Assembly: GCF_001427025.1 (NCBI RefSeq)
Contig: NZ_LMGA01000001.1
Location: 3,298,017-3,362,016 of the forward strand
Direction of reading: 5' to 3'
Source: Mesorhizobium sp. Root554
GTDB taxonomy: Bacteria; Pseudomonadota; Alphaproteobacteria; Rhizobiales; Rhizobiaceae
DNA length: 64,000 nt
Shown here piece after piece: positions 1-19,456 of the stretch. Below the pieces are notes generated by a model, which was not told the DNA's origin, did no database searches, and saw nothing but the letters and a program-made list of their open reading frames with translations. How positions within the stretch are numbered: the stretch's first letter is position 1; every line of letters starts with the position of its first letter. The translations under genes and the position numbers were made by a program.

Positions 1-399
1 ACCTGTCAGCCCCGTCGGCGTCTTGTGGTCATTCTCGAAAAATGCCGAATAGCTGTCGATGTTGGGCCGAAAACCCTTGCGCAGGACCAGTTCCGCCTTC
101 CCCCAGGCAAGCCCGGAATGGAACCGCGACCCTGTGCTGCCCTGGATGCAATGATCCGGCCACAGGGTTTGCGGACCATAGTCCATCTCGATTGCCTCGA
201 ACGGTTTCCTGCCGGGATGGCTGGAAGCGAAGCTGGAGTGACCGGCAGGGTGCCAATCCTGCGTCATGACGACATGATCGGCATGACGGATCAGATCGTT
301 GACGAGCGGAACGATCTCGTCGCCGCCGGCAACCGCCAGCGCCCCGCCGGGGCAAAAATCGTTCTGCATGTCGATGACGATCAAAGCTTCGTTGGACAA
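1..399 (-). CDS. pncA: Nicotinamidase PncA, 3' end outside window
   Basis: Hydrolyses nicotinamide to nicotinate and ammonia in the cytoplasm (NAD salvage). The frame starts at a TTG at 399, five bases after a perfect AGGAGG (405-410), and stays open for 133 codons to the window edge. Visible marks of the isochorismatase-like nicotinamidase family are IDMQNDFCPGGALAV near the N-terminus (catalytic Asp10), the metal-binding QDWHPAGHSSF segment (Asp48, His50, His54), LWPDHCIQGS (77-88 region) and the catalytic-lysine segment LRKG (Lys108) followed by DSYSAFF. The family is about 200-215 residues long, so roughly the last third, including the catalytic cysteine, lies outside. It is divergent from the molybdenum hydroxylase operon across 185 bases. 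The identification is very secure; no ATG start exists for this frame. Confidence 0.93.
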   Translation of the reverse strand, partial: MSNEALIVIDMQNDFCPGGALAVAGGDEIVPLVNDLIRHADHVVMTQDWHPAGHSSFASSHPGRKPFEAIEMDYGPQTLWPDHCIQGSTGSRFHSGLAWGKAELVLRKGFRPNIDSYSAFFENDHKTPTGLTG

Positions 400-491
400 G
401 AAAGCCTCCTCGCGAACGGAAGGCAGAAACTCGGCCAGATGGCCGCTTGCGTCAACCGCGAACCGTCCGTCGCCGCCTGCGAAACTCGGCT

Positions 492-532
492 TTGACAATA
501 TGACGCGGCTTGATATCATTTGCATACGAATG
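492..532 (+). promoter_or_regulatory. Promoter and palindromic operator for the Mo-hydroxylase operon
   Basis: TTGACA at 492-497 and TATCAT at 514-519 (16-base spacer) form a credible sigma70-type promoter reading toward the gene at 585. The palindrome CATTTGCATACGAATG at 517-532 overlaps the -10 and presumed start, with 12 of 16 positions symmetric, a position suited to repression. A closely related 16-mer lies at 12137-12152. The binding protein is unknown; the MarR regulator of the same operon is the nearest candidate, though the core also resembles GntR/FCD-type sites. Confidence 0.5.
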
Positions 533-584
533 AATTGGCCGGCACACCGGCTGGTCTTGGGGAAGGCCGCTCCTCGCGAAGTTT

Positions 585-1478
585 ATGTCTGCGGTGAAAT
601 GGAAGGCAGGCGTGACTCGTTACGCAAAGCCCACCGAACTTGAACAGGCGCTCGCCCTGCTTGGCGAAGGATCCTGGCGAATACTTGCCGGCGGCACGGA
701 TTTCTATCCGGCCTTGGGCAACCGGCCATTGCGGGAAAATGTGCTCGACATAAACGGCCTCTCGGCGCTGCGCGGCATCGCCGAGAGGGACAACCATTGG
801 TCTATCGGTTCGCGCACCGCCTGGACCGATCTCATCGGGCATGAGTTGCCGCCGGCCTTTGATGCCCTGAAGCAGGCCGCGCGTGAGGTCGGTTCGCAAC
901 AGATCCAGAATGTCGCGTCCATTGCCGGCAATCTCTGCAACGCTTCTCCGGCCGCCGACGGTGCTCCGGCGCTGATGGTGCTGGGCAGCGAGGTCGAACT
1001 GCGTTCTGCGGCGTCGACGCGATACCTCCCGCTCGAAGCCTTTATTCTCGGCAACCGGCGCACCGCCTTGCAGCCCAACGAGATGGTAACGGCCATTCGC
1101 GTTCCGAAGGCCGCCGCCACCGGCCGCTCGGCCTTCGTCAAGCTTGGCGCACGGCGCTACCTGGTGATTTCGATCGCCATGGCCGCCGCCCGGTTCGTCA
1201 TCGAGAACGGAATAGTTGCGGAGGCTTCGATTGCCGTCGGTTCCTGCTCGGCGGTTGCTGTCCGCTTGGCGGGGCTGGAATCCCTGTTGCTGGGGAAATC
1301 GGTCAGGGAATTGCCGGACATCGTGCGCGATGCATCGATTGATGAACTCTCGCCCATCGATGATGTGCGTGGCACCGCCCTCTATAGGCGAGACGCAGCG
1401 CGGGAAATCGTCAGCCGCGCCATGCTCTCCGCCACCGGACTTGATTCCGCTGAAATAGCGGCCGGGATGGTTGCATGA
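585..1478 (+). CDS. FAD-binding subunit of a molybdenum hydroxylase (xanthine dehydrogenase family)
   Basis: Medium subunit of a xanthine-dehydrogenase/CO-dehydrogenase-type enzyme; it carries FAD and passes electrons from the Fe-S clusters to the acceptor. The 297-residue length is typical. The FAD-pyrophosphate loop AGGTDFYP is at residues 35-42 and the second flavin motif SIAGNLCNASPAADG at 112-126, both characteristic of FAD_binding_5 proteins; the CO_deh_flav_C domain follows from about 175. No convincing SD precedes the ATG, but no better start was found. The last codons overlap the next gene (ATGAGC), so the subunits are translationally coupled. The substrate cannot be read from this subunit; context points to an N-heterocycle such as nicotinate. 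Confidence 0.9.
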   Translation: MSAVKWKAGVTRYAKPTELEQALALLGEGSWRILAGGTDFYPALGNRPLRENVLDINGLSALRGIAERDNHWSIGSRTAWTDLIGHELPPAFDALKQAAREVGSQQIQNVASIAGNLCNASPAADGAPALMVLGSEVELRSAASTRYLPLEAFILGNRRTALQPNEMVTAIRVPKAAATGRSAFVKLGARRYLVISIAMAAARFVIENGIVAEASIAVGSCSAVAVRLAGLESLLLGKSVRELPDIVRDASIDELSPIDDVRGTALYRRDAAREIVSRAMLSATGLDSAEIAAGMVA

Positions 1479-4228
1479 GCATCGACGGCGTTGACATCGA
1501 GTTCGCGGTGAACGGAACGGCAGTTTCGGTCCGAACCCTGCCTGTTCGCCGCCTTTCGGCGCTGCTGCGCGATGATTTGCGGATGACGGGAACGAAGGTG
1601 GGCTGCGATGCCGGCGATTGCGGCGCCTGTACCGTGCTGGTCGAAGGGGCGCCAGTCTGCGCCTGCCTGGTGCCGGCTGCATCCGTGGCCGGGTGCTCCG
1701 TTACCACAGTAGAAGGGCTTGCCGCCTGCAATCTGTCGGCGCTGCAGGCATCCTTTCTAAAGCACGGCGCGGCCCAGTGCGGCATTTGCACGCCAGGCCT
1801 TCTCGTCGCGGCAACAGCCTTGCTGGAACGGAATGCCTCTCCAACCGAGGCGGAGGTGCAGGACGCGCTGGGCGGGATACTGTGCCGCTGCACCGGCTAC
1901 CGCAAGATCGTCGCGGCAGTGATGGACGTCTCGTCGAATGCGCTCGGATTGGATCGCCGATGGCCGAGGGTGGGGCAGGCTGTGGGAGCGTCGCCGGTCC
2001 GGCTGGATGGTGTGCCGAAAGTGACGGGGGCTGAAAAGTTCGGCGCCGATTCCTTCCCGACGGACGCTTTGGCTGTGGCTGTGATCCGGTCGCCTTATTT
2101 CCATGCGGATTTCAGCTTTGGCGATCTTGCTGGATGGGCTGAGGGCCGGCCGGGCATCGTCGCTATCTTCACGGCGGCCGACATTTCCGGGCGCAATTGT
2201 TTCGGCGTCATCACGCCCTTTGCCGATCAGCCGGCGCTGGCCGAGGAAACGGCTAGGTTCCGCGGCGAGGCGGTGGCGCTGGTCGCGGGCGAGCGGGAAG
2301 CGATGCTCGCTCTCGACCTCACGGATTTTCCCGTGGAATGGCGCGAGCGGCCCAACATGCTGGAAGCGGCCGCTGCAACCGCCGAAGGCGCGTACCGCAT
2401 TCATTCTGGCCGTGAGGGAAACCTGCTGACCAGCGGCTTTGTCGAACGCGGCGATCCTGACGAAGCGCTTGCCTGCGCGGCCTTCATCGTGTCCGGCGCC
2501 ATCAGCACCTCCTATGTCGAACACGCCTATATCGAGCCGGAGGCAGGCCATGCCTATATGGACGGCGACACGCTGGTGATCGTCGCCTGTACCCAGGCGC
2601 CCTACATGGACCGCGACGAGACGGCCAAGGTGTTGGGACTCGCGCCTGAAAAGGTCCGCATCGTGCCGACCGCCACAGGTGGAGGTTTTGGCTCCAAGCT
2701 GGACATCTCGTTGCAGCCGCTGATCGGGCTCGTGGCATTGAAAACAGGCCGACCCGCCGCCCTTGCCTACACACGCGGCGAATCCATGATGTCGACGACC
2801 AAGCGTCATCCGGCACAGATGCAGGCGCGCATCGGCGCCGACGCCGAAGGCCGCATTGTCGGCATGACTTTCGCGGGCGAGTTCAACACCGGCGCCTATG
2901 CGAGCTGGGGGCCGACCGTCGCCAACCGCGTGCCGGTTCATGCCAGCGGCCCTTACCTCACGCCGAACTATCGCGCCTGGGGGCGGGCGATCCATACCAA
3001 CGGCCCGATCTCAGGGGCCTTTCGCGGCTTTGGGGTGCCGCAGGCGACGCTCATGCAGGAAACCTTGTATGATGAGCTTGCCGCAAAGCTGAACATTGAT
3101 CGGTTAGAGTTCCGGCTGCGCAATTGCCTTCGTAACGGTGCCGAAACGGTTACCGGACAATGGCTGGAAAGCGGCGTCGGCATTGCCGATTGCCTGGACG
3201 CGTTGAAGCCGCACTGGCGGCGTGCCCTGGCCGAGGCCGAAGCCTTCAATACATCGGACAGCGGCCTGAAACGTGGCGTTGGCATAGCCTCGTGCTGGTA
3301 TGGTTGCGGCAACACGTCTTTGCCAAACCCGTCCACCATCAAGGTCGGCCTCTCGCAAAGAGGCGAGGTGGTGCTGCATCAGGGCGCGGTCGACATCGGC
3401 CAGGGTTCGAACACAGTCATCGCGCAGATTTGCGCAGACGCGCTTGGCGTGCCGCTGCAGTCGCTGCGCCTCAGGGGCGCCGACACCGCGATAACTCCCG
3501 ACGCAGGCAAGACCTCGGCCTCGCGCCAGACTTTCATCACCGGCAAGGCCGCTCAAAAAGCCGGTCAGGCGCTGCGCGACGCGGTCCTGCGCTTTGCCAA
3601 CGTTTCGGCGCAGGCCGAGCTCGATCTTGACGGATCGGTCGTGGTGATCCGCGAGGGCGAGGCCGTCCGGCGCATCGATCTGGCGTCGATGCCCGCGGAT
3701 GCCGATGGCTTCGTCTTTGTGGCTGAGGAGACCTACGATCCGCCGGTGACGGCCATGGATGCCAAGGGCCAGGGTAAGCCTTATGCCGTCTACGGCTACG
3801 GCGCGCAGATCGCTGAACTCGAGGTCGATATGAAGCTCGGCACGGTGAAGCTCATCAAGATCACCGCGGCACACGACGTCGGCAAGGCGATCAATCCGAT
3901 ACTGGCGGAAGGCCAGATCGAAGGCGGTATCGCCCAGGGCATAGGCATGGCGCTGATGGAGGAATACATCCCCGGCCGCACCGAGAATTTGCATGATTAT
4001 CTCATTCCGACAATCGGCGACGTGCCGCCGATTGAAACGATCCTTGTCGAGGTGCCCGATCCCGAAGGTCCGTTCGGCGCCAAGGGGCTGGGCGAGCATG
4101 TGCTGATCCCGACGGCACCGGCCATCCTGAACGCGATTCGCCATGCCACCGGCATTCTCGTCACCAAGGTTCCCGCCACCCCGTCACGGGTGCTGGCGGC
4201 GATCCAGGCAGGAAAGGACGCCGCATGA
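1475..4228 (+). CDS. Fused [2Fe-2S]/molybdopterin subunit of a molybdenum hydroxylase
   Basis: A single 917-residue chain combining what is usually two subunits. Residues 1-155 form the small Fe-S subunit: plant-type cluster ligands Cys44, Cys49, Cys52 and probably Cys64, then the helical-domain cluster Cys102-x2-Cys105 and CRC at 137-139 with the usual CRCTGY ending. From about 165 onward is the aldehyde oxidase/xanthine dehydrogenase Mo-binding region, with GGGFGSK, AFRGFGVPQ and, near the C-terminus, the GAKGLGEH loop whose Glu874 matches the catalytic base of the family. The Mo cofactor would hydroxylate a heterocycle with water-derived oxygen. It overlaps its neighbours at both ends (ATGA-type), so the operon is tight. 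Annotation as xanthine dehydrogenase would be too specific; nicotinate-dehydrogenase-like activity is an inference from context. Confidence 0.88.
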   Translation: MSIDGVDIEFAVNGTAVSVRTLPVRRLSALLRDDLRMTGTKVGCDAGDCGACTVLVEGAPVCACLVPAASVAGCSVTTVEGLAACNLSALQASFLKHGAAQCGICTPGLLVAATALLERNASPTEAEVQDALGGILCRCTGYRKIVAAVMDVSSNALGLDRRWPRVGQAVGASPVRLDGVPKVTGAEKFGADSFPTDALAVAVIRSPYFHADFSFGDLAGWAEGRPGIVAIFTAADISGRNCFGVITPFADQPALAEETARFRGEAVALVAGEREAMLALDLTDFPVEWRERPNMLEAAAATAEGAYRIHSGREGNLLTSGFVERGDPDEALACAAFIVSGAISTSYVEHAYIEPEAGHAYMDGDTLVIVACTQAPYMDRDETAKVLGLAPEKVRIVPTATGGGFGSKLDISLQPLIGLVALKTGRPAALAYTRGESMMSTTKRHPAQMQARIGADAEGRIVGMTFAGEFNTGAYASWGPTVANRVPVHASGPYLTPNYRAWGRAIHTNGPISGAFRGFGVPQATLMQETLYDELAAKLNIDRLEFRLRNCLRNGAETVTGQWLESGVGIADCLDALKPHWRRALAEAEAFNTSDSGLKRGVGIASCWYGCGNTSLPNPSTIKVGLSQRGEVVLHQGAVDIGQGSNTVIAQICADALGVPLQSLRLRGADTAITPDAGKTSASRQTFITGKAAQKAGQALRDAVLRFANVSAQAELDLDGSVVVIREGEAVRRIDLASMPADADGFVFVAEETYDPPVTAMDAKGQGKPYAVYGYGAQIAELEVDMKLGTVKLIKITAAHDVGKAINPILAEGQIEGGIAQGIGMALMEEYIPGRTENLHDYLIPTIGDVPPIETILVEVPDPEGPFGAKGLGEHVLIPTAPAILNAIRHATGILVTKVPATPSRVLAAIQAGKDAA

Positions 4229-5766
4229 GCGAGCTTTCCGAACGGTTTGAAACCCACGATCCCGGTCAGAAGCAGATAGCCGAAAAGGTTCGCTGCGACG
4301 CCTGTCCCGTCATGTGCTACATCGCCGATGGCCGCACCGGAGCTTGCGATCGTTACGGCAACATAGACGGCCGCATCGTTCGCATGGACCCGCTGACGAT
4401 CCTCGATCATGCGGCCGATGCCGGCGGCGCAGTCGTTCCCTTTGCCGTGGGGGACCGGGAGTGGAACGGCGATCTTGTCAGCACTGCGCGCCCGTTCGTC
4501 ACCGCCATCGGCGCCGGCACGACCTATCCCGACTACAAGCCAGCGCCCTTCATCGTCAGCCAGGAGGTCGAGGGTGTCGATCTCGTGACGGTCGTCACCG
4601 AAGGCATCTTCTCCTATTGCGGCGTCAAGGTGAAGATAGATACGGACCGTCACCTCGGTCCCGAAACGGCGATGGTGCGAGCGCAGGGCGAGGCGGTCGG
4701 CCACGTGACAACAGGTGAATACGGCTCGCAGATGCTGTCGCTCGGCGGCGTGCAGCATCTGACCGGCGGCTCGAAGCAGGAAGGCCGCGTCACCTGCGAC
4801 ACACTGCTCGACCTTTGCAACCGCAAGCCCGTCGAACTGGCCATCGAGGGCGGTTCGACAGTCATTGTCGAAGCCGGCAAGCCGCCCGTTATCGACGGCA
4901 AGGCAGAGAGCCGCATGCGCGTCGGCTGCGGCTCCGCCACCATCGGCATGTTCGCCTCGCAATGGCGCGGGCTGGTCGACGAGGTCGTCGTGGTCGACGA
5001 TCACATCACCGGTGTCGTGTCCGAGCATCAGGCCGGCAAGGTGCTGGGCTGGGAAGACACCGGCATCAGGATCGTCGGTCGCCGCTCAACCCCTGGCCGC
5101 TATTTCAAGGTGTCGGAACCAGGCATCGGCTGGGGCGGCACGAGCATTTCCGACCCGCTGTCGATTCTTGGCGACTGGAATGAGAAAAAAGGCGCTCGCC
5201 CCGGCCTGTCGCTGCTCATGGTGTCGACCACTGGCGAGCAGTTTGCCTACTACGAACTGGACGCGGCGTTGAAGCCGGTCGAAAAGCCGTTCCCTGAACG
5301 GCTGCGCAAATCGGTGGGCCTGATCGAGGACAATTGCGAGCCGGCGCTGTGCACGGTGCTGTTCATTGGCGGCGCGGGCGGTTCGCTGCGGGCCGGCGTC
5401 ACCGAAAATCCGGTCAATCTCACCCGTTCCGTCCAGGGGATGAAAACCTATGTCACAGTTGGCGGCGCGCCGGTCTATGTCTGGCCCGGCGGTGGCATCA
5501 CCCTGATGGTGGATGTCACCCGCGTGCCCGAAAACGCCTTCGGCTATGTGCCGACCCCGGCGCTGGTGGCGCCGATAGAGTTCACGCTGAGACGGGATGA
5601 CTACATAAGGCTTGGTGGCTACGCGGACGAAATCCGCAGCGTCGAAGACGTCAAAGCGCGCGGCGGCGAATATCTCAATGCCCGGCGCGACAGGGACGCT
5701 CCACCCAGCAATCCGTGGCCACCGCTGGCGCAATTACACAGAGGTGGCGAGGGTGGCCGATCATGA
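4225..5766 (+). CDS. 6-hydroxynicotinate reductase-like protein
   Basis: A 513-residue protein that I match to the 6-hydroxynicotinate reductase family known from anaerobic nicotinate fermentation in Eubacterium barkeri; that enzyme reduces 6-hydroxynicotinate to 1,4,5,6-tetrahydro-6-oxonicotinate with ferredoxin. Directly visible: four N-terminal cysteines spaced C24-x2-C27-x3-C31-x9-C41 (in CDACPVMC and GACDRYG), suitable for a [4Fe-4S] cluster, and a glycine-rich segment around 233-240 (VGCGSATI). There is no signal peptide or membrane segment. It overlaps the Mo subunit upstream (ATGA) and the UPF0280 gene downstream (ATGA). The electron donor is not in the operon, though fpr lies about 6.5 kb downstream. 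Family recall is good; the substrate is not demonstrated. Confidence 0.75.
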   Translation: MSELSERFETHDPGQKQIAEKVRCDACPVMCYIADGRTGACDRYGNIDGRIVRMDPLTILDHAADAGGAVVPFAVGDREWNGDLVSTARPFVTAIGAGTTYPDYKPAPFIVSQEVEGVDLVTVVTEGIFSYCGVKVKIDTDRHLGPETAMVRAQGEAVGHVTTGEYGSQMLSLGGVQHLTGGSKQEGRVTCDTLLDLCNRKPVELAIEGGSTVIVEAGKPPVIDGKAESRMRVGCGSATIGMFASQWRGLVDEVVVVDDHITGVVSEHQAGKVLGWEDTGIRIVGRRSTPGRYFKVSEPGIGWGGTSISDPLSILGDWNEKKGARPGLSLLMVSTTGEQFAYYELDAALKPVEKPFPERLRKSVGLIEDNCEPALCTVLFIGGAGGSLRAGVTENPVNLTRSVQGMKTYVTVGGAPVYVWPGGGITLMVDVTRVPENAFGYVPTPALVAPIEFTLRRDDYIRLGGYADEIRSVEDVKARGGEYLNARRDRDAPPSNPWPPLAQLHRGGEGGRS

Positions 5767-6668
5767 ACGGCCCGCAGGCGCACTGGCTGGAAGACGGCAG
5801 GCGGCTTCATCTCAATCACGGACCTATCGATCTTGTCATCGAGGTTTTCGGACCGCCGACCGAACGCCGGTTGGCTTACGAGCAAGCAATCGCCCGCTTC
5901 GAGACAGTGCTCGGCGAACTGGTGGAGGAACTGGCCGAACTTCGCCGGCCGGCCACTCCTGGGCCCCGGCCTTTCTGGCGCACAACTGCTCGCCGTATGG
6001 AGCAGGCGGTTTCGCCACTCGCCCATACCTTCATCACGCCGATGGCGGCCGTGGCCGGCTCGGTCGCGGATGAAGTGCTGGCGGCTCTGGTGGCGGGCCG
6101 TACGCTCGACAAGGCCTATGTCAACAATGGCGGCGACATCGCTTTGCATCTGGCCCCGGGCCAGACGATGACGTTGGCGATCGGCGGAACCGGCCATGGC
6201 CTCTCGGACCGTATCGCTATCAGCGCCGACAACCCGGTGCGCGGCATCGCCACCAGCGGCTGGCGTGGGCGGTCTTTCTCGCTTGGCATTGCTGATGCCG
6301 TCACGGTGCTGGCCCGCAATGGCGCTGCTGCCGACGCCGCCGCAACGCTGATCGCCAACGCGGTCGATCTGCCGGGCCACCCCGCGGTGGCGTGTCAGGC
6401 GGCGTGCGAACTGGCACCGGACAGTGATCTCGGCGATCGGCTGGTGACGACTGGCGTGGGATATTTGTCCGAGCAGGATATTGAAACGGCATTGTCCGCC
6501 GGCCTTGGGGTGGCGGAGGATTTTCGCCGGCGCGGCCTGATCGAGGCGTCGGCATTGTTCCTTGCAGGCAGATGTGTGATGACGGGCCCATTCCCGTCGA
6601 AGAGTTCTCTTTCGCCGCCGGCTGGAACCATCGACCAGTCATTCGCCAGGGGTCCTGCCCATGCCTGA
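5763..6668 (+). CDS. UPF0280 family protein (ApbE-like fold)
   Basis: 301 residues, starting at the ATG that overlaps the preceding stop (ATGA) rather than the 16-codon-longer open frame. UPF0280 proteins are related to ApbE flavin transferases. Here AYVNNGGDIAL near residue 120 matches the ApbE 'V-x-x-GGD' segment, RGIATSGW near 161 matches the SG loop, and SLGIADAVTVLA followed by AADAAATLIANA matches the conserved ApbE tail. Classical ApbE proteins are lipoproteins exported to the periplasm; this one has no signal peptide, so it would act in the cytoplasm. Its position directly after the reductase suggests a cofactor-maturation role, perhaps flavinylation, which is inference. The last 40 residues are low-complexity and poorly conserved in appearance. 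Confidence 0.8.
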   Translation: MNGPQAHWLEDGRRLHLNHGPIDLVIEVFGPPTERRLAYEQAIARFETVLGELVEELAELRRPATPGPRPFWRTTARRMEQAVSPLAHTFITPMAAVAGSVADEVLAALVAGRTLDKAYVNNGGDIALHLAPGQTMTLAIGGTGHGLSDRIAISADNPVRGIATSGWRGRSFSLGIADAVTVLARNGAAADAAATLIANAVDLPGHPAVACQAACELAPDSDLGDRLVTTGVGYLSEQDIETALSAGLGVAEDFRRRGLIEASALFLAGRCVMTGPFPSKSSLSPPAGTIDQSFARGPAHA

Positions 6669-7245
6669 CTTTCCCGTCCGCAAGATCGCCGTCATTACCG
6701 AGGAAATCCTTCATGAAGGTGGTCCGGCTCCCGCGATGCCGCGTCGCCGCGCCGCCGCGTGGGCAATCGTGCAAAACCCGTTTGCCGGCAAATATGCCGC
6801 CGATCTGCAGCCGGCGATGGATGATCTGAAGCCGCTTGGCCTTGACCTTACCGACCGATTGATCGCTGCGCTGGGCGGCGATGTCGTGCAGATTGACGGC
6901 TACGGGAAGGGCGCCATTGTCGGCAGCGCAGGCGAGATCGAACATGGCGCGCTTTGGCATGTGCCGGGCGGTTATGCGATGCGGGAGCGCCTCGGTCAGG
7001 CCAAGGCGATTGTGCCCTCGGCGATGAAGGTCGGCGGCATTGGCGCGACACTGGACGTGCCGCTCGGACACATCAACGCCGCCTATGTGCGCAGCCATTT
7101 CGACGCCTTCGAGGTGCGCGCCGGCGACGGCCCCCGCGCGGACGAAATCCTGTTTTGCCTCGCCATGGCCTGTGGCCCGCGTATCCACAGTCGTATGGGT
7201 GGGTTGGAAGCCAAGGACATCAAGTTGTGGGACGGCCAGCGATGA
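6661..7245 (+). CDS. Amino acid synthesis family protein (AA_synth, PF06684-like)
   Basis: 194 residues, overlapping the previous gene by 8 bases and the next by ATGA. It resembles the AA_synth family, whose biochemical role is unestablished. Visible features are the start VRKIAVITEEILHEGG, a conserved PFAGKYAADLQPAMDDL block near 38-56, an IDGYGKGAIVG glycine-rich turn and SAMKVGGIGATLDVPLGH near 120. There is no signal peptide or membrane helix. Members are often found beside amidohydrolase, hydantoinase or hydroxynicotinate-type catabolic genes, which agrees with this neighbourhood. I do not assign a reaction. Confidence 0.75.
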   Translation: MPDFPVRKIAVITEEILHEGGPAPAMPRRRAAAWAIVQNPFAGKYAADLQPAMDDLKPLGLDLTDRLIAALGGDVVQIDGYGKGAIVGSAGEIEHGALWHVPGGYAMRERLGQAKAIVPSAMKVGGIGATLDVPLGHINAAYVRSHFDAFEVRAGDGPRADEILFCLAMACGPRIHSRMGGLEAKDIKLWDGQR

Positions 7246-7703
7246 CCGGCGAAAGCAGTCTCCTCAAGATCGTCGAGGCCGATGCCGCCACGGACGAGGC
7301 CTATCACCTGCAGGAGCAGGTGGGCTTTATCCTGCGCAAGGCGCACCAGCGCCATGTCTCGATTTTCGCCGCTCATATCGCCGACCTGACGCCGCCACAG
7401 TTTGCGGCGTTGGCGAAGCTTCACGACGTCGGCGAGACCTCGCAGAACCAGCTTGGCACGCTTGTCGCCATGGACGCAGCCACGATCAAGGGTGTCATCG
7501 ACCGGCTGAAGGCGCGAGGATTGGTCGATCTTTCCAGGCATGATGCCGACAAGCGCAGGCTGATGGTGAGCCTGACCGCCGAGGGAAGATCGACCATCGA
7601 GCGGCTCATCCCGCTGGCGCAGCAGGCCACACAGGAGACGCTGGCGCCGCTGACGGACAAGGAAATCGCCATTTTCCTGAAGCTTCTGGCAAAGCTTGCC
7701 TGA
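7242..7703 (+). CDS. MarR family transcriptional regulator
   Basis: 153-residue winged-helix regulator. The winged helix-turn-helix is visible as TPPQFAALAKLHDVGETSQNQLG, then the recognition helix MDAATIKGVIDRLKARGLV and the wing RHDADKRRLMVSLTAEGR, all typical of MarR. N-terminal and C-terminal helices would form the dimer. It begins inside the stop of the AA_synth gene (ATGA), so it is the sixth cistron and is probably an autoregulator of the operon responding to an aromatic or heterocyclic ligand. The matching palindromes at 517-532 and 12137-12152 are possible targets, but no direct link is visible. Confidence 0.92.
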   Translation: MTGESSLLKIVEADAATDEAYHLQEQVGFILRKAHQRHVSIFAAHIADLTPPQFAALAKLHDVGETSQNQLGTLVAMDAATIKGVIDRLKARGLVDLSRHDADKRRLMVSLTAEGRSTIERLIPLAQQATQETLAPLTDKEIAIFLKLLAKLA

Positions 7704-7728
7704 GCCCCGCATTCATGAGGAGGCGCGG

Positions 7729-8310
7729 GTGACTGATCCGGTGGACAAGCCCCGAAACGCCCTCTGGCGCTGTCTCTATACGCAGGGCCATGACGCCGCA
7801 CTGCTCACGACTGTCTCCAACGGCTGGAAGCTGACCGGGACAGCCGTGTTCCGGGGCGACAACGGGCCGATGTCAGCCGGTTACTCGGTCGAAATGGACG
7901 AGGCCTGGGTAGCGTTTCGAGGCGCCGTCGCGGGCTTTTCCGGCGGACGGCATTTTCGACACGAAATTGAAAAGACGGCGGAGGGCTGGATGCTCGACGG
8001 CAGGCCTAACGGGCTGGTGGAACTGACCGATCTCGATTTCGGCTTCACGCCCGCAACCAATTTCCAGCAGTTGCGGCGTGCAAACTTGCATATTGGCGAA
8101 AGGGCTGAATTCTCCGTCGTCTGGTTCGACATAGGCAGGGAGCGCTTGCTTGATTTGCCGCAGATATACGAACGGCGCGACGACACCCACTATTGGTATG
8201 AGTCGCCCACGAGCGGATATCGGGCCACGCTCGAGATCGACAGCAGCGGTTTCGTTCGGCTCTATCCGGAACTGTGGCAGATGGAGGATCGGACAGCTTC
8301 AGCGGTATGA
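7729..8310 (+). CDS. Putative glycolipid-binding domain protein (PF06475-like)
   Basis: About 193 residues from a GTG placed five bases after AGGAGG (7718-7723); the longer open frame from 7696 lacks any SD. The sequence has the tryptophan- and acid-rich beta-barrel character of the putative glycolipid-binding family: LWRCLYTQGHDAALL at the start, a central LTDLDFGFTPATNFQQLRR, and HYWYESPTSGYRATLEID near the C-terminus. There is no signal peptide. It lies 25 bases downstream of marR in the same direction, so it may be the last cistron, but its function is unknown and it may be a bystander. Its 3' end overlaps the 3' end of the opposite-strand hyuB by 12 bases. Confidence 0.7.
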   Translation: MTDPVDKPRNALWRCLYTQGHDAALLTTVSNGWKLTGTAVFRGDNGPMSAGYSVEMDEAWVAFRGAVAGFSGGRHFRHEIEKTAEGWMLDGRPNGLVELTDLDFGFTPATNFQQLRRANLHIGERAEFSVVWFDIGRERLLDLPQIYERRDDTHYWYESPTSGYRATLEIDSSGFVRLYPELWQMEDRTASAV

Positions 8311-9990
8311 GGTTCCGAACAGCCGCTCCGCCTGCTCCGGCGTATAGTAACCCATCTCCACATCGCGGCGGATCAGCTCGGGGCTGCGCTCCGCCGGATC
8401 GCCATAGCCACCGCCGCCTGGCGTCGCCACCCGTACACGGTCGCCGGCCTTGAGAGGAATGTCCTGTTCCTTGGAAAGATGCGGCGGCACATGTGCCTCA
8501 CCATCCCGGAAAACCGTTACCTCGTTCACTGCGCCGTCCCCGCCACCCAGAACGCCCTGCGGTCCGAAGCGGCCGTGGTCCATGACGAAGGAGGCCCGCG
8601 CCTCGCCGCGCAAAATCTCCACCTCATAGGCGAGACCGAAGCCGCCGCGATGCTTGCCGGCGCCGCCGGACCCTTCACGCAAGGCATAGTGGCGGTAGAG
8701 CACGGGGAATGCCTGCTCCATGATCTCGACCGGCGGGGACTTCGAAATGCCGATGGTCGAGCAGCCGTTGGAGAGGCCGTCATGGCCGGCATTGCCGCCA
8801 TAGCCGCCGCCGGAAATCTGGTACATGACATAGTCACGCCCGCGCAGCGGATCGCTGCCGCCAAGCGCGAAATTGCCGCTCGATCCGGCCGGGGCCGCCG
8901 TCACTTTTTCCGGCAATGCCTGAACCATCGCCGCGAATACGGCTTCGGCGATGCGCTGCGAAACCTCAGCCGCGCAGCCCGAGACGGGGCGTGGATAATG
9001 CGCATCGAGGAAGGTGTCCTCCGGCGTATTGACGACAAGCGGCTCGAAGGCGCCGGCGCTGATCGGAACGTCGGGAAAGATGTGGCGCATGGCGAGATAG
9101 ACAGACGACAGCGTCGTCGCCAGAACGCTGTTCATCGGCCCGGCGCAGGGTTTCGACGATCCTGTAAAGTCGAACGTCAGCCTGTCGGTCGTCTTCTCGA
9201 TAGCCAAAGCGATGGTCAGCGGTTCGTTCACGACGCCGTCTGAGTCCACGAACGCCTTGGAGCGATAAGTGCCATCCGGGATGGCGGCGATATGCGCGCG
9301 CATCTGGTCGGCGGCGCGGCGGCGCAGTTCCGCAATGGCCTCGGAGACTGTTTCGTCGCCGTAACGGTCCAGGATTTCGTTCACCCGGTCTTGCCCGACC
9401 AGCAAGGCGGCTGCCTGCGCCTTGATGTCGCCGATGCGCTGGTCCGCGACCCGGATGTTGGATGAAATGATGGCATGGATCTCGCGGTCGAGCACGCCTT
9501 TCTTGAACAGCTTAACCGGTGGCAGCCGCAGGCCTTCCTGCTCGACGGCTGTTGCGGAAGCCGAGAAGCCGCCCGGTACCGAGCCGCCAATGTCGGGCCA
9601 ATGACCGGTGTTGGACAGCCAGCAGAAGATGCGGCCCGCCCGGTAAAGCGGCATGACAAAGCGGACATCCATCAGATGCGTGCCCCCGAGATAGGGGTCG
9701 TTGACGATGTAGATGTCGCCTTCCTCGGGCGGCAGGCAGCGCCCGTCGGCGATCATCTCGATAACAGTTCTCGTCGAATACTGCATGACGCCGACGAACA
9801 CCGGCAGGCCCTGGCTGCCCTGTGCGATCAGCGAACCGTCAGCTGCCGAATAAATGCCGTCCGAGCGGTCGTTGGCTTCCGCGATGACGGGCGAAAAGGC
9901 GGCGCGCGAAAATGTCAGGTCCATCTCGTCGCAGGCCTGCTGCAGCGCCGCCTGGATGACGGAAAGAGTGATGGCGTCGAGGGTGGTCAT
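8299..9990 (-). CDS. hyuB: Hydantoinase B/oxoprolinase family protein
   Basis: 563-residue beta subunit of an ATP-dependent hydantoinase/5-oxoprolinase-type enzyme, which opens lactam or imide rings. The true start is the ATG at 9990 inside the end of hyuA (ATGA); an upstream open stretch to 10149 is hyuA in another frame. Family marks are the N-terminal LDAITLSVIQAALQQACDEM, the GDIYIVNDPYLGGTHLMDV segment near residue 95, SNTGHWPDIGG near 130 and the C-terminal glycine-rich GGGGYGDPAERSPELIRRDV. Translational coupling to hyuA is clear. The physiological substrate is not visible; placement beside the 6-hydroxynicotinate-reductase-like operon makes a reduced-pyridone lactam a candidate. Confidence 0.9.
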   Translation of the reverse strand: MTTLDAITLSVIQAALQQACDEMDLTFSRAAFSPVIAEANDRSDGIYSAADGSLIAQGSQGLPVFVGVMQYSTRTVIEMIADGRCLPPEEGDIYIVNDPYLGGTHLMDVRFVMPLYRAGRIFCWLSNTGHWPDIGGSVPGGFSASATAVEQEGLRLPPVKLFKKGVLDREIHAIISSNIRVADQRIGDIKAQAAALLVGQDRVNEILDRYGDETVSEAIAELRRRAADQMRAHIAAIPDGTYRSKAFVDSDGVVNEPLTIALAIEKTTDRLTFDFTGSSKPCAGPMNSVLATTLSSVYLAMRHIFPDVPISAGAFEPLVVNTPEDTFLDAHYPRPVSGCAAEVSQRIAEAVFAAMVQALPEKVTAAPAGSSGNFALGGSDPLRGRDYVMYQISGGGYGGNAGHDGLSNGCSTIGISKSPPVEIMEQAFPVLYRHYALREGSGGAGKHRGGFGLAYEVEILRGEARASFVMDHGRFGPQGVLGGGDGAVNEVTVFRDGEAHVPPHLSKEQDIPLKAGDRVRVATPGGGGYGDPAERSPELIRRDVEMGYYTPEQAERLFGTSYR

Positions 9991-12056
9991 CGTCCCACCT
10001 CGACGACCAGATTCCCATCCGCGTCGCTCTGCGCCCGGTCGCCCGGCTCCATCACCGTGGTGCAGTCCATCTGCTCGAGGATCGCAGGACCCTCGATCGC
10101 GGCATCGAGCGGCAGCTTTTCGCGATCGTAAACCGGCGTATCGTGCCATGTCCCGCCGTACCAGACAGGCCGGACCTCGCGCAGCGCGGCATCAAGGCTG
10201 GAAGCTCGCCCGGCCGGATCGATCAGCCGGCTAAGATCGAGCGGCGTCCGCACGCCGGTGACGGATGTGTTGAGATTGACCAGTACGGCGCGGATTTCCG
10301 GCAGTTCGACCCTGAAACGGGCGAAATAGGCACGCTCGAACAAATCTTGCAGCACCGCCCGTTCGATGTGGGGCGAGGGGAGCGGCACGTTGATGATATG
10401 CGTCTGGCCGATGAACTGCATGTCCGCCGAATGGGTGACGCGAATCGTTTCAGGCGTCACCGCTTCCTTGGCGATCAGCGCGGCGCCTTCTGACCTGTGG
10501 CGCGCCAGAATGCCCGCCGCCTGTGCTACATCGAGGCCGCCGACCGGCTGGTTGATCGTGTTGACGAAATCGTGGCGCATGTCGGCCACCACGCAGCCCA
10601 ATGCATTGGTGATGCCCGGCCGCGCGGGCACCAGTACGCGCGGCAGGCCGAGCTCTCGCGCCAGCGCCGAGGCGTGCAGCGGTCCCGCGCCGCCGAAGGC
10701 GAACAGGGAAAAGTCGCGCGGGTCATGCCCCCGTGCAACCGAGACCATGCGGATCGCCCCCGCCATCTTGATGTTGCCGAGGCGCAGAACGGCGCCTGCG
10801 GCGTCAACGCCCGACAGTCCGGTCGCCCGGCCGATCTTGTCTTCGAATATTCGCGTGACGCTCTCCATCGAAATCGGATGATCGACCGCCAAAAGCTTTT
10901 TCGGCGCCAATCGGCCAAGCACCAGGTTGGCGTCGGTCACGGTGGGCTCGCTGCCGCCGCGGCCATAGCAGATCGGGCCAGGGTTGGCGCCCGCGCTTTC
11001 CGGTCCAAGCTGGATGAGACCTGCCGCATCGACGCGCGCGATCGACCCGCCGCCGGCACCCACCGTATGCACCGCGACCATCGGCACATGGATCGGCATC
11101 CCATATTCGATTTCGATTTCGTTGGAGACGGCCGGTTCGGCGTTGCGGATCAACGCCACATCGGTCGAGGTGCCGCCCATGTCGTATGTGACGAGATTGG
11201 GGAACCCGGCGCGCTTGCCGGTATAGGCGGCGGCGATGACGCCGGAGGCGGGTCCCGACATCACGGTCTTTGCCGACTCTGCGGTGACGAAACGGGCCGA
11301 GATCATGCCGCCATTGCCGTTCATGATCAGGAAGTCGCGCGCATAGCCCTGCGCGGCCAGTTCCTTGCGCAGCCTGGCGACATACCGTTCCAGTATGGGC
11401 TGGACGGAGGCGTTGACGGCGGCGGTGACGCCGCGCTCGAACTCGCGCGCTTCCGACAGAAGCGCATGGCCGGCGGTGATGTGGCCGTTGGTCCAGATCT
11501 CAGCGGCGATCTCGGCCGCGCGCCGCTCGTGCGTGGGATTGGCGTAGGAATGGAGGAAGTGGATGACGAGGGATTCGCAGCCGGCTTCGACAAGGCGCTG
11601 CACGGCCTCGCGCACTTCTTGCTCGTCGAGCGCGACACGGATCGCGCCGCCGGCTTCGACGCGCTCCGTCACCTCCAGCCGCAGATTGCGAGGAATGACG
11701 GGCACGAATGTTCCGGTCATCCCGTAGGCCTGTGGCCGGGTGCGCCGGCCGAGCTCGATCACGTCGCGGAACCCCCGCGTGGTGATCATGCCGGTTTTCG
11801 CCAGACGCCGCTCGAGCACGGCATTGGTGGTGGTCGTCGTGCCGTGGACGATGAGGTCGATGTCGGAGACTGGGAATTGCGTGGCGCCAAGCGCCGAAAC
11901 CACGCCGAAGGCCTGGTTCTCCACGGTGGTGGGTATCTTGGCGATGTGGACGCTTCCGCCGTCGCGCGCGTCGATCAAAAGCAGGTCTGTGAAGGTGCCG
12001 CCGACATCGATGCCCGCGACGACGCTGCCGGCCGCGGCCGAAACTTTCTCATTCAT
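9987..12056 (-). CDS. hyuA: Hydantoinase A/oxoprolinase family protein
   Basis: 689-residue alpha subunit, the ATP-binding partner of HyuB. The actin-like ATPase phosphate loop AGIDVGGTFTDLLLID is at residues 14-29, VHGTTTTTNAVLERR near 70 and VTYDMGGTSTDVALI near 290, all diagnostic of the hydantoinase A/oxoprolinase family. It is the first gene of the two-gene operon hyuAB. Upstream is a 224-base intergenic region shared with the divergent fpr, and this holds a palindrome related to the one in front of the Mo-hydroxylase operon. That shared motif is the best evidence that this pair belongs to the same pathway. 'N-methylhydantoinase' would be over-annotation. Confidence 0.92.
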   Translation of the reverse strand: MNEKVSAAAGSVVAGIDVGGTFTDLLLIDARDGGSVHIAKIPTTVENQAFGVVSALGATQFPVSDIDLIVHGTTTTTNAVLERRLAKTGMITTRGFRDVIELGRRTRPQAYGMTGTFVPVIPRNLRLEVTERVEAGGAIRVALDEQEVREAVQRLVEAGCESLVIHFLHSYANPTHERRAAEIAAEIWTNGHITAGHALLSEAREFERGVTAAVNASVQPILERYVARLRKELAAQGYARDFLIMNGNGGMISARFVTAESAKTVMSGPASGVIAAAYTGKRAGFPNLVTYDMGGTSTDVALIRNAEPAVSNEIEIEYGMPIHVPMVAVHTVGAGGGSIARVDAAGLIQLGPESAGANPGPICYGRGGSEPTVTDANLVLGRLAPKKLLAVDHPISMESVTRIFEDKIGRATGLSGVDAAGAVLRLGNIKMAGAIRMVSVARGHDPRDFSLFAFGGAGPLHASALARELGLPRVLVPARPGITNALGCVVADMRHDFVNTINQPVGGLDVAQAAGILARHRSEGAALIAKEAVTPETIRVTHSADMQFIGQTHIINVPLPSPHIERAVLQDLFERAYFARFRVELPEIRAVLVNLNTSVTGVRTPLDLSRLIDPAGRASSLDAALREVRPVWYGGTWHDTPVYDREKLPLDAAIEGPAILEQMDCTTVMEPGDRAQSDADGNLVVEVGR

Positions 12057-12280: not shown

Positions 12281-13105
12281 ATGAACACCATTCCCGCGTT
12301 GAACGACGCAGGCGCGAAGGCGCAATTTCCGATACCTGCCAATGTTTTCGCCGAGACGGTGGTATCGGTGAAGCATTATACCGACCGTCTGTTTGCGTTC
12401 CGCATCACCCGTCCGCAATCGTTCCGATTCCGCTCGGGCGAGTTTGTCATGATCGGCCTGCCCAATGCCGAAAAGCCGGTCTTCCGCGCTTATTCGGTCG
12501 CCAGCCCGGCCTGGGACGACGAACTGGAATTCTTCTCGATCAAGGTGCCGGACGGCCCGCTGACCTCGCACCTGCAGAAGATCCAGGTCGGTGATACTGT
12601 CATCATGCGGCAGAAGCCGACCGGCACGCTGGTGCTGGATGCGCTGACGCCGGGCAAGCGGCTGTTCATGATCTCCACCGGCACGGGCATCGCGCCTTTC
12701 GCCAGCCTGCTGCGCGATCCCGATACCTATGAGAAGTTCGAGCAGGTCTATCTGACCCACACCTGCCGCGACATTGCCGAGCTGACCTATGGCCAGGAGC
12801 TGGTTTCGGCTCTGGAGAACGACCCGCTGATCGGCGAACTGACCGGTGGCCGGGTCACGCTCTACAACTCCACCACGCGCGAGGCTTCGGCCTGCATGGG
12901 CCGCATCACCGCGCTGATCGGTTCCGGCAAGTTCTATTCCGACCTCGGCATCGAACCGCTGGATCCGCAAACCGATCGCGTGATGATCTGCGGCTCCATG
13001 CACATGCTGAAGGACGTCAAGGAAATGGCCGAGGGGCTCGGCTTCGTCGAGGGCTCGCTGAGCCAGCCCGACAGTTTCGTCGTCGAGCGCGCCTTCGTCG
13101 GCTGA
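12281..13105 (+). CDS. fpr: Ferredoxin--NADP reductase
   Basis: 274-residue FAD enzyme exchanging electrons between NADPH and ferredoxin or flavodoxin. The FAD site FRAYSVASP is near residue 70, and the nucleotide site STGTGIAPFASLLRDP near 130-145. CGSMHMLKDVKEMAEGLGF and the C-terminal FVVERAFVG complete the bacterial Fpr pattern. I chose the ATG at 12281 over the open frame from 12140 because the family begins about 20 residues before the FAD domain and the upstream codons look like intergenic DNA. Fpr is usually a housekeeping, oxidative-stress-linked enzyme in rhizobia; supply of reducing power to the nearby HNR-like reductase is possible but unproven. Confidence 0.93.
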   Translation: MNTIPALNDAGAKAQFPIPANVFAETVVSVKHYTDRLFAFRITRPQSFRFRSGEFVMIGLPNAEKPVFRAYSVASPAWDDELEFFSIKVPDGPLTSHLQKIQVGDTVIMRQKPTGTLVLDALTPGKRLFMISTGTGIAPFASLLRDPDTYEKFEQVYLTHTCRDIAELTYGQELVSALENDPLIGELTGGRVTLYNSTTREASACMGRITALIGSGKFYSDLGIEPLDPQTDRVMICGSMHMLKDVKEMAEGLGFVEGSLSQPDSFVVERAFVG

Positions 13106-15354: not shown

Positions 15355-16353
15355 TTACTTGATAGCCTTCCTATCCGCATCGAACCGATAAGTCTTCGTC
15401 GGGTCCGGCGTTGCATAAAGCGTCGCGCCGGGCTCTGCATCGTAGACGCCGAAAATGCGCACCGTGATCAACCCGGTCTTTTCGCAGTCGAGATAGAGGT
15501 TGGTGTCGGCGCCGAGATGTTCGGCATGCACCACCGTGCCCTTCCAACTGCCCTTCTTCGGGTCTACCGTGATGTGCTCCGGACGGACGCCGATCGTTTT
15601 CGCCGTCTCGCCCAGCCGCCCGCCGTCGATGAAATTCATCTTCGGCGAGCCGATGAAACCGGCGACGAATTCGTTTGCCGGTGCATTGTAGAGCTCCATC
15701 GGCTTTCCGACCTGCTCGATGCGTCCGGCGTTGAGCACCACGATCTTGTCGGCCAGCGTCATCGCCTCGACCTGATCGTGGGTGACATAGATCATCGTCG
15801 CCTTCAGCCGCCGATGCAGTTGGGCGATTTCCAGCCGCGTGTTGACCCTGAGAGCCGCGTCGAGGTTCGACAGCGGTTCATCGAACAGGAACAGCTTCGG
15901 CTCGCGCACGACTGCGCGGCCAATGGCGACGCGCTGGCGCTGGCCGCCTGACAGTTCCGCCGGCCGGCGCTTGAGGTAGGGCTCCAGCGACAGCATCGAC
16001 GACGCAATGCCGATGCGTCGGTCGATCTCGCTCGCCGCTTCGCCGGCCTGCTTGAGGCCGAGGCCCATATTGTCGCGCACGGTCAGGTGCGGGTAGAGCG
16101 CATAGGTCTGGAACACCATCGCGATGCCGCGCTTGGCCGGCGGCGTGGCGCTGACATCGCCGCCGTCGATCAGCACGCGACCCGAGGACGAATCCTCCAG
16201 ACCGGCGATAACCCTGAGCAGCGTGGACTTGCCGCAGCCGGACGGCCCGACGAAGACGACGAACTCGCCATCCTCGACCGTCAGGTCGATGCCTTTCAGC
16301 ACATCCACCTTGCCGAAGGATTTTTGCACATTCTCGATTGTCAGCGAGCCCAA
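15355..16353 (-). CDS. Sugar ABC transporter ATP-binding protein (MsmK/UgpC type)
   Basis: 332-residue ATPase powering a carbohydrate importer at the inner membrane. Walker [12 protein letters not shown] is near residues 37-47, signature [14 protein letters not shown] near 135, Walker [13 protein letters not shown] near 155, and the switch His in YVTHDQVEA. After about 235 comes the OB-fold regulatory domain ([11 protein letters not shown]) typical of the MalK/UgpC group. It is the last cistron of the leftward operon murQ-SBP-permeases-oxidoreductase. Such ATPases are often shared among several sugar importers. Confidence 0.93.
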
Positions 16354-16411
16354 GGCATTCCCCTTTGTTGAAGCCGGGGGTTGGAACGAAACATCCGGCT
16401 CGATAACAATC

Positions 16412-17476
16412 TCACAGCCGCACCGCCTTGCCGGTTCGCACGCTCTCGTCCGCCGCCAGGCAAACGGCCAGCGACTTCACCGCGTCGTCCATATGGCGGG
16501 TCAGGTCGATATCCTCGCGGATAGCCTTGAGCAGGAAGGCCTGTTCGGCGTCGCACAGTTCCTGATGGCCGGGTTCGCCTTGCATGGACAGAAGCTCGTC
16601 CGGATTGGCGAATTTCCCATCCGGTCCGGTCGTCGCGCTGTGCAGCCTTATGGTCGAGGTTTTCGTATGTGTATCGATGTCGTCGGATTTCACGCCTTCC
16701 GCCATGACGATCGATACGCAGCCGTTCGGCGAGATCACGTCCTTCACGAAGAAGGCGGTTTCCGAAATCATCGGACCCCAGCCGGCCTCGTACCAGCCGA
16801 CCGAGCCGTCCTCGAACAGCACTTGCAGATGGCCGTAATTGTACATGTCCGACGCGATCTCGTCGGACAGCCGCACGCCCATGCCACGCACTTCCACCGG
16901 CCGGGTATCGGTGATCTGCAGCATGACATCGAGATAATGCACGCCGCAGTCGACGATCGGCGAGGTCGTCTGCATCAGTTGCTTGTGCGTGCCCCATGTT
17001 GCGCCAGAGGATTGCTGGTTCAAATTCATGCGGAAGACATAGGGGCCGCCGAGTTTGCGGGCCTCCGCGATCAGCCGCATCCATGATGGGTGATGGCGCA
17101 ATATGTAGCCGACGACCAGCTTCTTGCCGTTAGCCTTCGCTGCATCGACGACGCGTTGCGCATCGGCGATCGTCGTGGCCAGCGGCTTTTCGACGAAGAC
17201 ATGACAGCCGGCTTCCAGCGCCCTCACGGCGTAGTCCGCATGGCTGTCCGAATAGGTGGCGATGGCGACGACATCCGGTCTCTCGGTGGCAATCGCCTCG
17301 TCGAAGGAACGGCGGATTTCCTGGCCGGACAGACCGCCCGGCAACGGCACGTCCGAACGGTTCACCAGCGCGGCGATCTCGAAGCCCGGATTCTGGTGAT
17401 AGGCCAGCGCATGGCTGCGGCCCATATTGCCGAGCCCGGCAATGACGACACGCAGGGGGTTCAGCGACATGCTCAT
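16412..17476 (-). CDS. Gfo/Idh/MocA family oxidoreductase
   Basis: 354-residue NAD(P)-dependent oxidoreductase. The Rossmann motif [14 protein letters not shown] is at residues 10-23, the family signature FVEKPLATT near 94-102, and the C-terminal sugar-binding domain contains [11 protein letters not shown] with the catalytic-type His. It overlaps the upstream permease stop (ATGA), so it is an integral part of the importer operon. The family oxidises or isomerises sugars such as inositol, glucose, or anhydro sugars; which amino-sugar derivative would be the substrate here is unknown. It is not a standard member of GlcNAc or MurNAc catabolism, so it is the least explained gene of the operon. 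Confidence 0.9.
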
Positions 17477-18312
17477 TTCACCGCTCCTGACGTGATGCCC
17501 CGGATCAGTTGCCGCGAGAAGATGACGTAAAGAACGAGCACCGGCAGGATGGCAAGCGACAGCGCCGCCAGCACGGCGTTCCAGTTGGTGACGAACTGGC
17601 CGAGGAAAAGCTGCGCGCCCAGCGTCACAGTCTTGGTGCTTTCCGACGGCGCCAGGATGAGCGGGAACCAGAGATCGTTCCAGATCGGGATCATGGTGAA
17701 GACGGCGACGGTCGCCATGGATGGCCGCACCAGCGGCAGCACGAGGCGGAAGAAGATCGTGTATTCGGACAGGCCGTCGATGCGGCCGGCGTTCTTGAGG
17801 TCGTCGGAGACGCCGCGCATGAACTCCGACAGGATGAACACGGCGAGCGGCAGCCCCTGCGCCGTATAGACCAGGATCAGCGCCGTCAGTGTGTTGACCA
17901 GCCCGCCGGCGACCATCATCTGCAGGATCGCCACGGTGCCCAGCCGGATCGGGATCATGATGCCGAGCGCCAGATAGAGCCCCATCAACGTGTTGCCGCG
18001 AAAGCGGTATTCCGACAAGGCGAAGGCCGCCATGGCGCCGAACAGGAGCACGAAGAACAGCGACGCGACCGTGACGACGATGCTGTTCTGGAAATAGAGA
18101 AGGAAGTCGCCCTGGTTCACCACCGTGGCGTAGCCGACGAGGTCGAACGTCGTGCCTGTCGGCGGCATCAGCGGCGTGCGGAAGATGGCGGCGCGCGACT
18201 TGAACGAATTGACGATGATCAGCACGACCGGAAACAGCGCGATGATCGTGTAGACGATCAGGATCGCATGTGCAGCAACCGAGCGTGGAAGGGAAGAAGT
18301 GGCGCGGCTCAT
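17473..18312 (-). CDS. Carbohydrate ABC transporter permease (MalG type)
   Basis: 279-residue inner-membrane permease with about six hydrophobic helices, beginning with AHAILIVYTIIALFPVVLII. The EAA loop that contacts the ATPase is seen as KNAGRIDGLSEYTIFFRLVLPLVRP around 185-210, with the usual A-x-x-DG pattern. It pairs with the MalF-type permease ending 10 bases upstream and overlaps the Gfo/Idh/MocA gene. Belongs to the CUT1 family of oligosaccharide/amino-sugar importers. Confidence 0.92.
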   Translation of the reverse strand: MSRATSSLPRSVAAHAILIVYTIIALFPVVLIIVNSFKSRAAIFRTPLMPPTGTTFDLVGYATVVNQGDFLLYFQNSIVVTVASLFFVLLFGAMAAFALSEYRFRGNTLMGLYLALGIMIPIRLGTVAILQMMVAGGLVNTLTALILVYTAQGLPLAVFILSEFMRGVSDDLKNAGRIDGLSEYTIFFRLVLPLVRPSMATVAVFTMIPIWNDLWFPLILAPSESTKTVTLGAQLFLGQFVTNWNAVLAALSLAILPVLVLYVIFSRQLIRGITSGAVK

Positions 18313-18321
18313 CCTACCCCC

Positions 18322-19251: not shown

Positions 19252-19305
19252 GGATGCGAGCCTGTTGAGAAGTTGGAGATTAGCCGCGCCCGCTGGGCCG
19301 GCACA

Positions 19306-19456
19306 CCCTCCCCCTTGAGGGGAGGGCGGCGAGCAATCGTAGCGGAGCGAAGATTGAGAGCAGGGCTGGGGGTAGGTCAGCGTGGAGCGCTGCCTCGATC
19401 ACCCCCGCCCGCGTCAAAAACCTCGCAAGCTCGGTCCTCCCCAAAAGGGGGGAGGG
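19306..19456. repeat. GC-rich inverted repeat between binding-protein and permease genes
   Basis: Two hairpins with related sequences face each other: CCCTCCCC/GGGGAGGG at 19306-19326 and CCTCCCC/GGGGAGG at 19436-19455. Each is self-complementary and the ends are inverted copies of one another (ACCCTCCCCC type), bounding about 110 bases without a gene. This is the layout of a palindromic intergenic element of the RIME/REP-like kind seen in rhizobia. Located 3' of the binding-protein gene in an operon, it could stabilise that mRNA or attenuate readthrough. Confidence 0.6.

Follow-up and report, generated by a model that had tools for sequence, protein, structure and literature searches.

A putative reductive nicotinate operon of Mesorhizobium sp. 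Root554 pairs a 6-hydroxynicotinate reductase homolog with a protein predicted to have the ApbE fold

The 64,000-nucleotide stretch of the Mesorhizobium sp. Root554 genome analyzed here (the window; G000:C1:3298017-3362016 of a 3.75-Mb host genome) carries six overlapping genes that form an operon at 585–7703. They encode the flavin adenine dinucleotide (FAD) subunit of a molybdenum (Mo) hydroxylase, a fused iron-sulfur (FeS)-Mo subunit, a homolog of 6-hydroxynicotinate reductase (HNR), a UPF0280 protein, an AA_synth protein and a MarR regulator, and are followed on the opposite strand by hyuB and hyuA (8299–12056). On balance, we favor reading this block as an operon for reductive nicotinate catabolism of the Azorhizobium/Eubacterium barkeri type, in a variant form in which UPF0280 would flavinylate HNR, HyuAB would take the place of enamidase, and a BpsR-type regulator would exert control. 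An earlier note, made from the DNA letters of the window, had proposed a reductive route for nicotinate or a related lactam or pyridone. This is partly supported overall, with nicotinate as the best reading because the regulator is of BpsR type, genes for nicotinamidase and nicotinate phosphoribosyltransferase lie nearby, and an amidohydrolase that clearly matches the solved enamidase 2vun (E 1.6e-113) stands near HNR in 12 of 90 loci.

The operon and its conserved neighborhood

All six operon genes lie on the plus strand. The FAD subunit (585–1478; PF00941, PF03450) is followed by the fused [2Fe-2S] and molybdopterin subunit, a probable nicotinate hydroxylase (1475–4228; PF01799, PF02738, PF20256), then by HNR (4225–5766), whose relatives are so named in plasmid records, UPF0280 (5763–6668; NF003322, 394 bits against a cut-off of 290), AA_synth, or DUF1185 (6661–7245; PF06684, 224 bits against a cut-off of 27; PDB 3byq, E 4e-54), and the BpsR-type MarR regulator (7242–7703), which overlaps the operon end. 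Neighboring genes overlap by 4 bases at each junction except that between UPF0280 and AA_synth, where the overlap is 8. On the minus strand, HyuB (8299–9990; PF02538, 534 bits) and HyuA (9987–12056; PF01968, PF05378, PF19278) both have domains above family cut-offs. Open reading frames (ORFs) and family searches bear out the positions that the earlier note gave for the nicotinamidase, Mo-hydroxylase, HNR-like, UPF0280, AA_synth and hydantoinase genes, the run without gaps from Mo-hydroxylase to AA_synth, and the divergence of a minus-strand nicotinamidase gene from the FAD subunit at 585. That note omitted a PF06475 gene, the MarR gene with a probable operator, the ApbE fold predicted for UPF0280, and the apparent replacement of enamidase by HyuAB.

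The mechanism that we infer, in its catalytic activities, flavin attachment and regulation alike, would run as follows. Nicotinamidase would free nicotinate, which the Mo-hydroxylase would turn into 6-hydroxynicotinate; HNR would reduce this to 1,4,5,6-tetrahydro-6-oxonicotinate (THON), perhaps with electrons from a nearby ferredoxin-NADP reductase. UPF0280 would attach flavin covalently to HNR, plausibly at an invariant DHITGVx(S/T) motif, and HyuAB, as an adenosine triphosphate (ATP)-dependent lactamase of the oxoprolinase/caprolactamase kind, would open the THON lactam to give 2-formylglutarate and ammonia. The MarR regulator would repress the operon at a dyad over the −10 box and be released when 6-hydroxynicotinate binds, and AA_synth, the weakest part of the scheme, may act near the lactam/enamine step.

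According to PMC3511419, Azorhizobium and Bradyrhizobiaceae share a conserved hnr cluster that includes two proteins of unknown function, and a Bradyrhizobiaceae strain with the cluster degrades nicotinate and 6-hydroxynicotinate; both the reductive route in Rhizobiales and the conserved cluster with its two unknown proteins, which are probably UPF0280 and AA_synth, are already published there. PMC9304392 summarizes the pathway in which a bifunctional enamidase leads from THON to 2-formylglutarate. Our locus shares a Mo-family hydroxylase, an HNR homolog and an ABC transporter with the systems of A. caulinodans, Bradyrhizobiaceae and E. barkeri; unlike them, the host has HyuAB and no enamidase, and it has a fused FeS-Mo hydroxylase, a nicotinamidase and a BpsR-type MarR. 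For the UPF0280 assignment, the enamidase/HyuAB exchange and the operator, no earlier report was found in the literature searched, which covers few subscription journals, and the name UPF0280 was not found in it, including the available portion of PMC8238504.

The earlier note had suggested comparing the neighborhoods of the HNR gene (the 4225 product) across Rhizobiales. Our set comprises the best 80 of at least 589 confirmed matches and is for this reason biased to close relatives. In loci of other genomes, UPF0280 adjoins HNR on the same strand in 78 of 80, and AA_synth lies downstream within 4.5 kilobases (kb) in 69 of 80, some of the misses being contig ends. The conserved order in these 80 loci rules out chance clustering, and the view that UPF0280, AA_synth and HyuAB are additional, conserved components is supported. 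Of 397 genomes from the order, 92 carry HNR, with one gene in each (in two pieces in G133); it is single-copy in the host and has plasmid copies in 26 records. The closest named relatives are from Mesorhizobium (83–89% identity), and relatives at 60–89% identity carry the name 6-hydroxynicotinate reductase in public records. Locus L130 and the Comamonadaceae plasmid locus L097 carry a hydroxylase of another type, with cytochrome c domains, which we take to resemble Pseudomonas putida NicAB.

No family in Pfam or NCBIfam matches HNR itself at E 0.001, and its best match among PDB sequences reaches only E 0.22. Its structural model is of medium confidence (predicted local distance difference test score, pLDDT, 76.3) and gives no Foldseek PDB match at E ≤0.001 and no VIA match at Z ≥5 among 996 chains; we draw no conclusion on its fold. 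The alignment of 116 rows is more informative. Cys24, 27, 31, 41, 132, 235 and 371 are invariant in 116 of 116 rows, and Cys191 is present in 115. The first four form a C-x2-C-x3-C-x9-C pattern (codons 24–41; 4294–4347, plus strand) that is probably an Fe-S site and agrees with the four-cysteine cluster noted earlier.

UPF0280 as a candidate flavin transferase for HNR

The AlphaFold2 model of UPF0280 has a pLDDT of 92.8. Foldseek matches it to 12 PDB chains at E ≤0.001, of which 10 are ApbE, Ftp or FmnB and two belong to 2o34 (DVU1097), a UPF0280-like protein and sequence relative at E 1.1e-5. In VIA, the model scores Z 20.0 to 2o34 and 13.4–15.4 to flavin transferases (rows 2–20), and the next row, urate oxidase, falls to 7.8. 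An hhalign comparison of 49 UPF0280 with 12 ApbE sequences gives a probability of 93.4 and E 2.6e-7 (for a single comparison) over 88 columns, and aligns the VNNGGD, ATSG and ADxxxT stretches of UPF0280 with the ApbE core. As modeled, UPF0280 has the ApbE flavin-transferase fold. It resembles ApbE, Ftp and FmnB in fold and in these three core stretches, and differs from them in being encoded in one operon with a soluble Fe-S enzyme.

Co-occurrence points in the same direction. UPF0280 is present in 90 of the 397 genomes, namely in 89 of the 92 that are HNR-positive and in 1 of the 305 that are HNR-negative (G185). HNR is found without UPF0280 in G120 and, as a partial HNR, in G183 and G224. 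The two genes occur together even when more than 200 kb apart or on different contigs (G068, G135, G181, G208, G308). The HNR of E. barkeri reportedly carries a covalent flavin. From the ApbE fold, the near-exclusive co-occurrence with HNR and a host genome with no canonical PF02424 ApbE, we infer that UPF0280 may flavinylate HNR.

A candidate attachment site in HNR is the DHITGV-V-S segment at codons 259–266 (4999–5022, plus strand), picked out by alignment conservation: all 116 rows, 107 of them distinct, contain DHITGV, and position 266 is occupied by Ser in 111 and by Thr in 5. The ApbE consensus, according to PMC12052999, is D-x-x-[ST]-G-A-[ST], and putting Val in place of its Ala cuts modification roughly in half. 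The likeness of DHITGVx(S/T) to this target is suggestive, not exact.

HyuAB, enamidase and AA_synth

Enamidase has no match in the host genome at E ≤1e-20. We surveyed 80 of the 92 HNR-positive genomes, the other 12 being left out for completeness <95, fragmentary HNR, or contamination of 8 (G032, G037, G047, G133, G151, G181, G183, G206, G224, G246, G279, G288). Thresholds of ≥65% identity for enamidase (the rest at 42–44%) and ≥57% for HyuA (the next at 49–50%) were both set after seeing these gaps; HyuA matches were ranked by score and listed to far below 57%. Enamidase alone is present in 46 genomes, HyuA alone in 28, both in 3 and neither in 3, for a Fisher p of 6e-15 that ignores relatedness. 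The three with neither (G064, G159, G245) each have a HyuA at 49–50%, and G245 also has an enamidase relative at 44%. On a tree of HNR (44 rows, 41 labeled), HyuA switches between presence and absence 3 times and enamidase 5 times; across 3 independent pairs, enamidase switches in the opposite direction in an average of 2.5 and in none does it follow HyuA (p 0.25). Within flanks of ≤10 kb, 48 of 90 loci show neither gene; with flanks this short, we do not take this as counter-evidence, and whole genomes were searched instead. None of 80 HNR-negative genomes, which include 11 from the same family, has a pathway-type HyuA (best identity 46%), and enamidase is absent from them save for fragments at 57–65% (G072) and one relative at 43% (G056).

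The best curated NCBIfam match of HyuAB is caprolactamase, a lactam hydrolase (489 and 308 bits for the two subunits). Because the host has no enamidase, HyuA and enamidase alternate, and the best curated match is a lactam hydrolase, HyuAB may replace enamidase in opening THON. It is like caprolactamase CapAB and the 5-oxoprolinase family in its HyuA and HyuB domains, and unlike them in its proposed substrate, THON.

AA_synth is present in 88 of 92 HNR-positive genomes and also in 48 of 305 HNR-negative ones, which rules it out as a partner of HNR only. Near HNR, two copies are found in 8 of 12 enamidase-type loci and one in 25 of 29 HyuA-type loci. The protein belongs to the same family (PF06684) as the DUF1185 proteins BB2672 and SPO0826, and differs from them in standing in an N-heterocycle operon and not in amino-acid metabolism. 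In PMC2954203, the link between this family and amino acids was drawn from a chorismate-mutase-like fold and from branched-chain transporters encoded nearby; here, a branched-chain-type transporter accompanies an N-heterocycle operon. An enamine or imine hydrolase would be our guess.

AA_synth also occurs in other settings. The HNR-free locus L170 (G225; 5083–10755) holds two AA_synth genes, an enamidase, a MarR, an isochorismatase-type hydrolase and a nucleoside hydrolase, all Pfam-checked. By reading, L174 (G209; 5456–9224), away from HNR, has two AA_synth genes, an enamidase, a MarR and an isochorismatase-type hydrolase; the G209 enamidase thus sits with two AA_synth genes at a distance from HNR, and coordinates suggest the same for G248 and G098. 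In L171 (G396; 462–5364), AA_synth lies beside an alpha/beta hydrolase, a flavin reductase, a luciferase-like monooxygenase and an aldehyde dehydrogenase, with a similar order in L173; this gene set presumably resembles the Rut pathway, in which a YjgF-type protein sits.

Regulation, alternative readings and neighboring genes

The closest PDB sequence matches of the MarR protein are 2nnn (114 bits) and Bordetella BpsR (6pcp/6pco, 105–106 bits), with the next at 56. BpsR contacts 6-hydroxynicotinate through Tyr15, His23, Arg26 and His32, as given in PMC6837509; the aligned residues here are Y21, F29, R32 and H38, so that three of the four are kept. The regulator differs from BpsR, its second-best PDB relative, in this one residue and in standing on a different, reductive pathway. 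Upstream of the FAD subunit, a promoter-like site, TTGACA-16-TATCAT (492–519, plus strand), was found by a promoter scan, which alone is no evidence because one site was found against a shuffle mean of 2.2. Its −10 box is overlapped by the dyad TCATTTGCATACGAATGA (516–533), a probable MarR operator. With at most one substitution, this dyad precedes the FAD subunit in 37 of 73 loci, counting the window itself, whereas shuffles average 0.3; the loci that have it are mostly close Mesorhizobium-like relatives.

Several observations weigh against the interpretation given above. HNR is a putative 6-hydroxynicotinate reductase, named from the public records of its relatives. The PDB relatives of the Mo subunit, a member of a broad family, include E. 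barkeri nicotinate dehydrogenase 3hrd and, as the top single chain, the aldehyde oxidoreductase 1dgj, and homology does not decide its substrate; the regulator has Phe29 in place of BpsR His23; and in locus L098 the 25 kb shown hold HNR, UPF0280, AA_synth and HyuAB but no Mo-hydroxylase. The target of the block might accordingly be a different N-heterocycle or lactam, for example a pyridone or some substituted nicotinate, which we consider quite unlikely given the divergent nicotinamidase, the nicotinate phosphoribosyltransferase upstream, the BpsR-type regulator, the relatives with enamidase and the compounds degraded by the Bradyrhizobiaceae strain (PMC3511419). HyuAB, too, may be a separate oxoprolinase or hydantoinase outside the pathway, with AA_synth or an unrelated enzyme opening THON and the alternation mirroring lineage alone. 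Its scores are far below the CapAB equivalog cut-offs of 1000, hyuAB is often distant from hnr in the genus of the host, three genomes have both enamidase and HyuA (G098, G209, G248), AA_synth is found beside HNR in both the enamidase and the HyuA versions, and on the tree the contrast between HyuA and enamidase falls into clusters, with 3 independent pairs being too few for significance. We nevertheless regard this as improbable, since exactly one of the two enzymes is present in 74 of the 80 HNR-positive genomes and this type of HyuA is absent from the 80 HNR-negative ones.

For UPF0280, the stretch of ApbE that holds the catalytic His (the general base, His257 of Vibrio cholerae ApbE) is a gap in the hhalign alignment, and the protein, unlike ApbE, Ftp and FmnB, has no match to PF02424 or to any Pfam family at E 0.001. 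HNR departs from the ApbE consensus, with Val for Ala and the Ser/Thr one place later (D-H-I-T-G-V-x-[ST]), and UPF0280 relatives also occur in two methanogens. UPF0280 could instead be a flavin carrier, an FAD pyrophosphatase or an HNR assembly chaperone that retains the ApbE fold, and some ApbE relatives hydrolyze FAD (PMC12052999). We hold such a role to be unlikely, because the NGGD, ATSG and ADxxxT stretches align with the ApbE core and UPF0280 pairs almost one to one with a single reductase, as would fit a modifying enzyme that has one target.

Beyond the operon, nicotinamidase (pncA; 1–525, minus strand; PF00857, 43 bits over cut-off) is cut by the left end of the window, its 3′ part lying outside; in the host genome it extends to a complete ORF of 241 amino acids, the truncated piece scores 147 bits to NCBIfam PRK11609 (below the cut-off of 174), and, judged by reading the sequence, translation probably begins closer to 399 than to the ATG at 525. 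To its left lie a nicotinate phosphoribosyltransferase (L082:10735-12039; above two NCBIfam cut-offs), which also neighbors hnr in L129, L130, L142 and L073, and the branched-chain-type ABC transporter, its binding protein identified by Pfam and its other subunits by ORF reading. A ferredoxin-NADP reductase-like flavoprotein (12281–13105, plus strand; PF00970, PF00175), whose best NCBIfam match is ferredoxin-NADP reductase (134 bits, under the cut-off of 390) and which has a relative in 28 of 89 loci, is a possible electron donor route for HNR. Between the operon and hyuB, a PF06475 glycolipid-binding-family gene (7729–8310) has a relative in only 3 of 80 loci (L022, L024, L025) and for this reason is probably outside the pathway. 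Farther along, ORF reading of 15355–25725 suggests an ABC sugar transporter, a Gfo/Idh-type dehydrogenase, SIS-domain proteins, a kinase-like protein, a GntR regulator and an amidohydrolase, a block that looks like amino-sugar (N-acetylglucosamine/N-acetylmuramic acid, GlcNAc/MurNAc) use, and 26538–31004 encodes a secreted-looking protein of 1488 amino acids with repeated domains and a cysteine-rich tail.

Our fuller proposal is tentative: UPF0280 may be a dedicated HNR flavin transferase acting at DHITGVx(S/T), several lineages may have exchanged enamidase for an ATP-driven oxoprolinase-type lactamase, and AA_synth may act on the enamine/lactam intermediate in both versions. If true, this would give the UPF0280 family its first function and make an ApbE-fold protein the flavinylating partner of an Fe-S enzyme that reduces a ring. 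It would also mean that the breakdown of vitamin B3 has had its ring-opening enzyme replaced, and it would correct the label "amino acid synthesis", given on the strength of the chorismate-mutase-like fold and the transporter neighbors (PMC2954203). One operon thus suggests testable functions for UPF0280, AA_synth/DUF1185 and a HyuAB subfamily.

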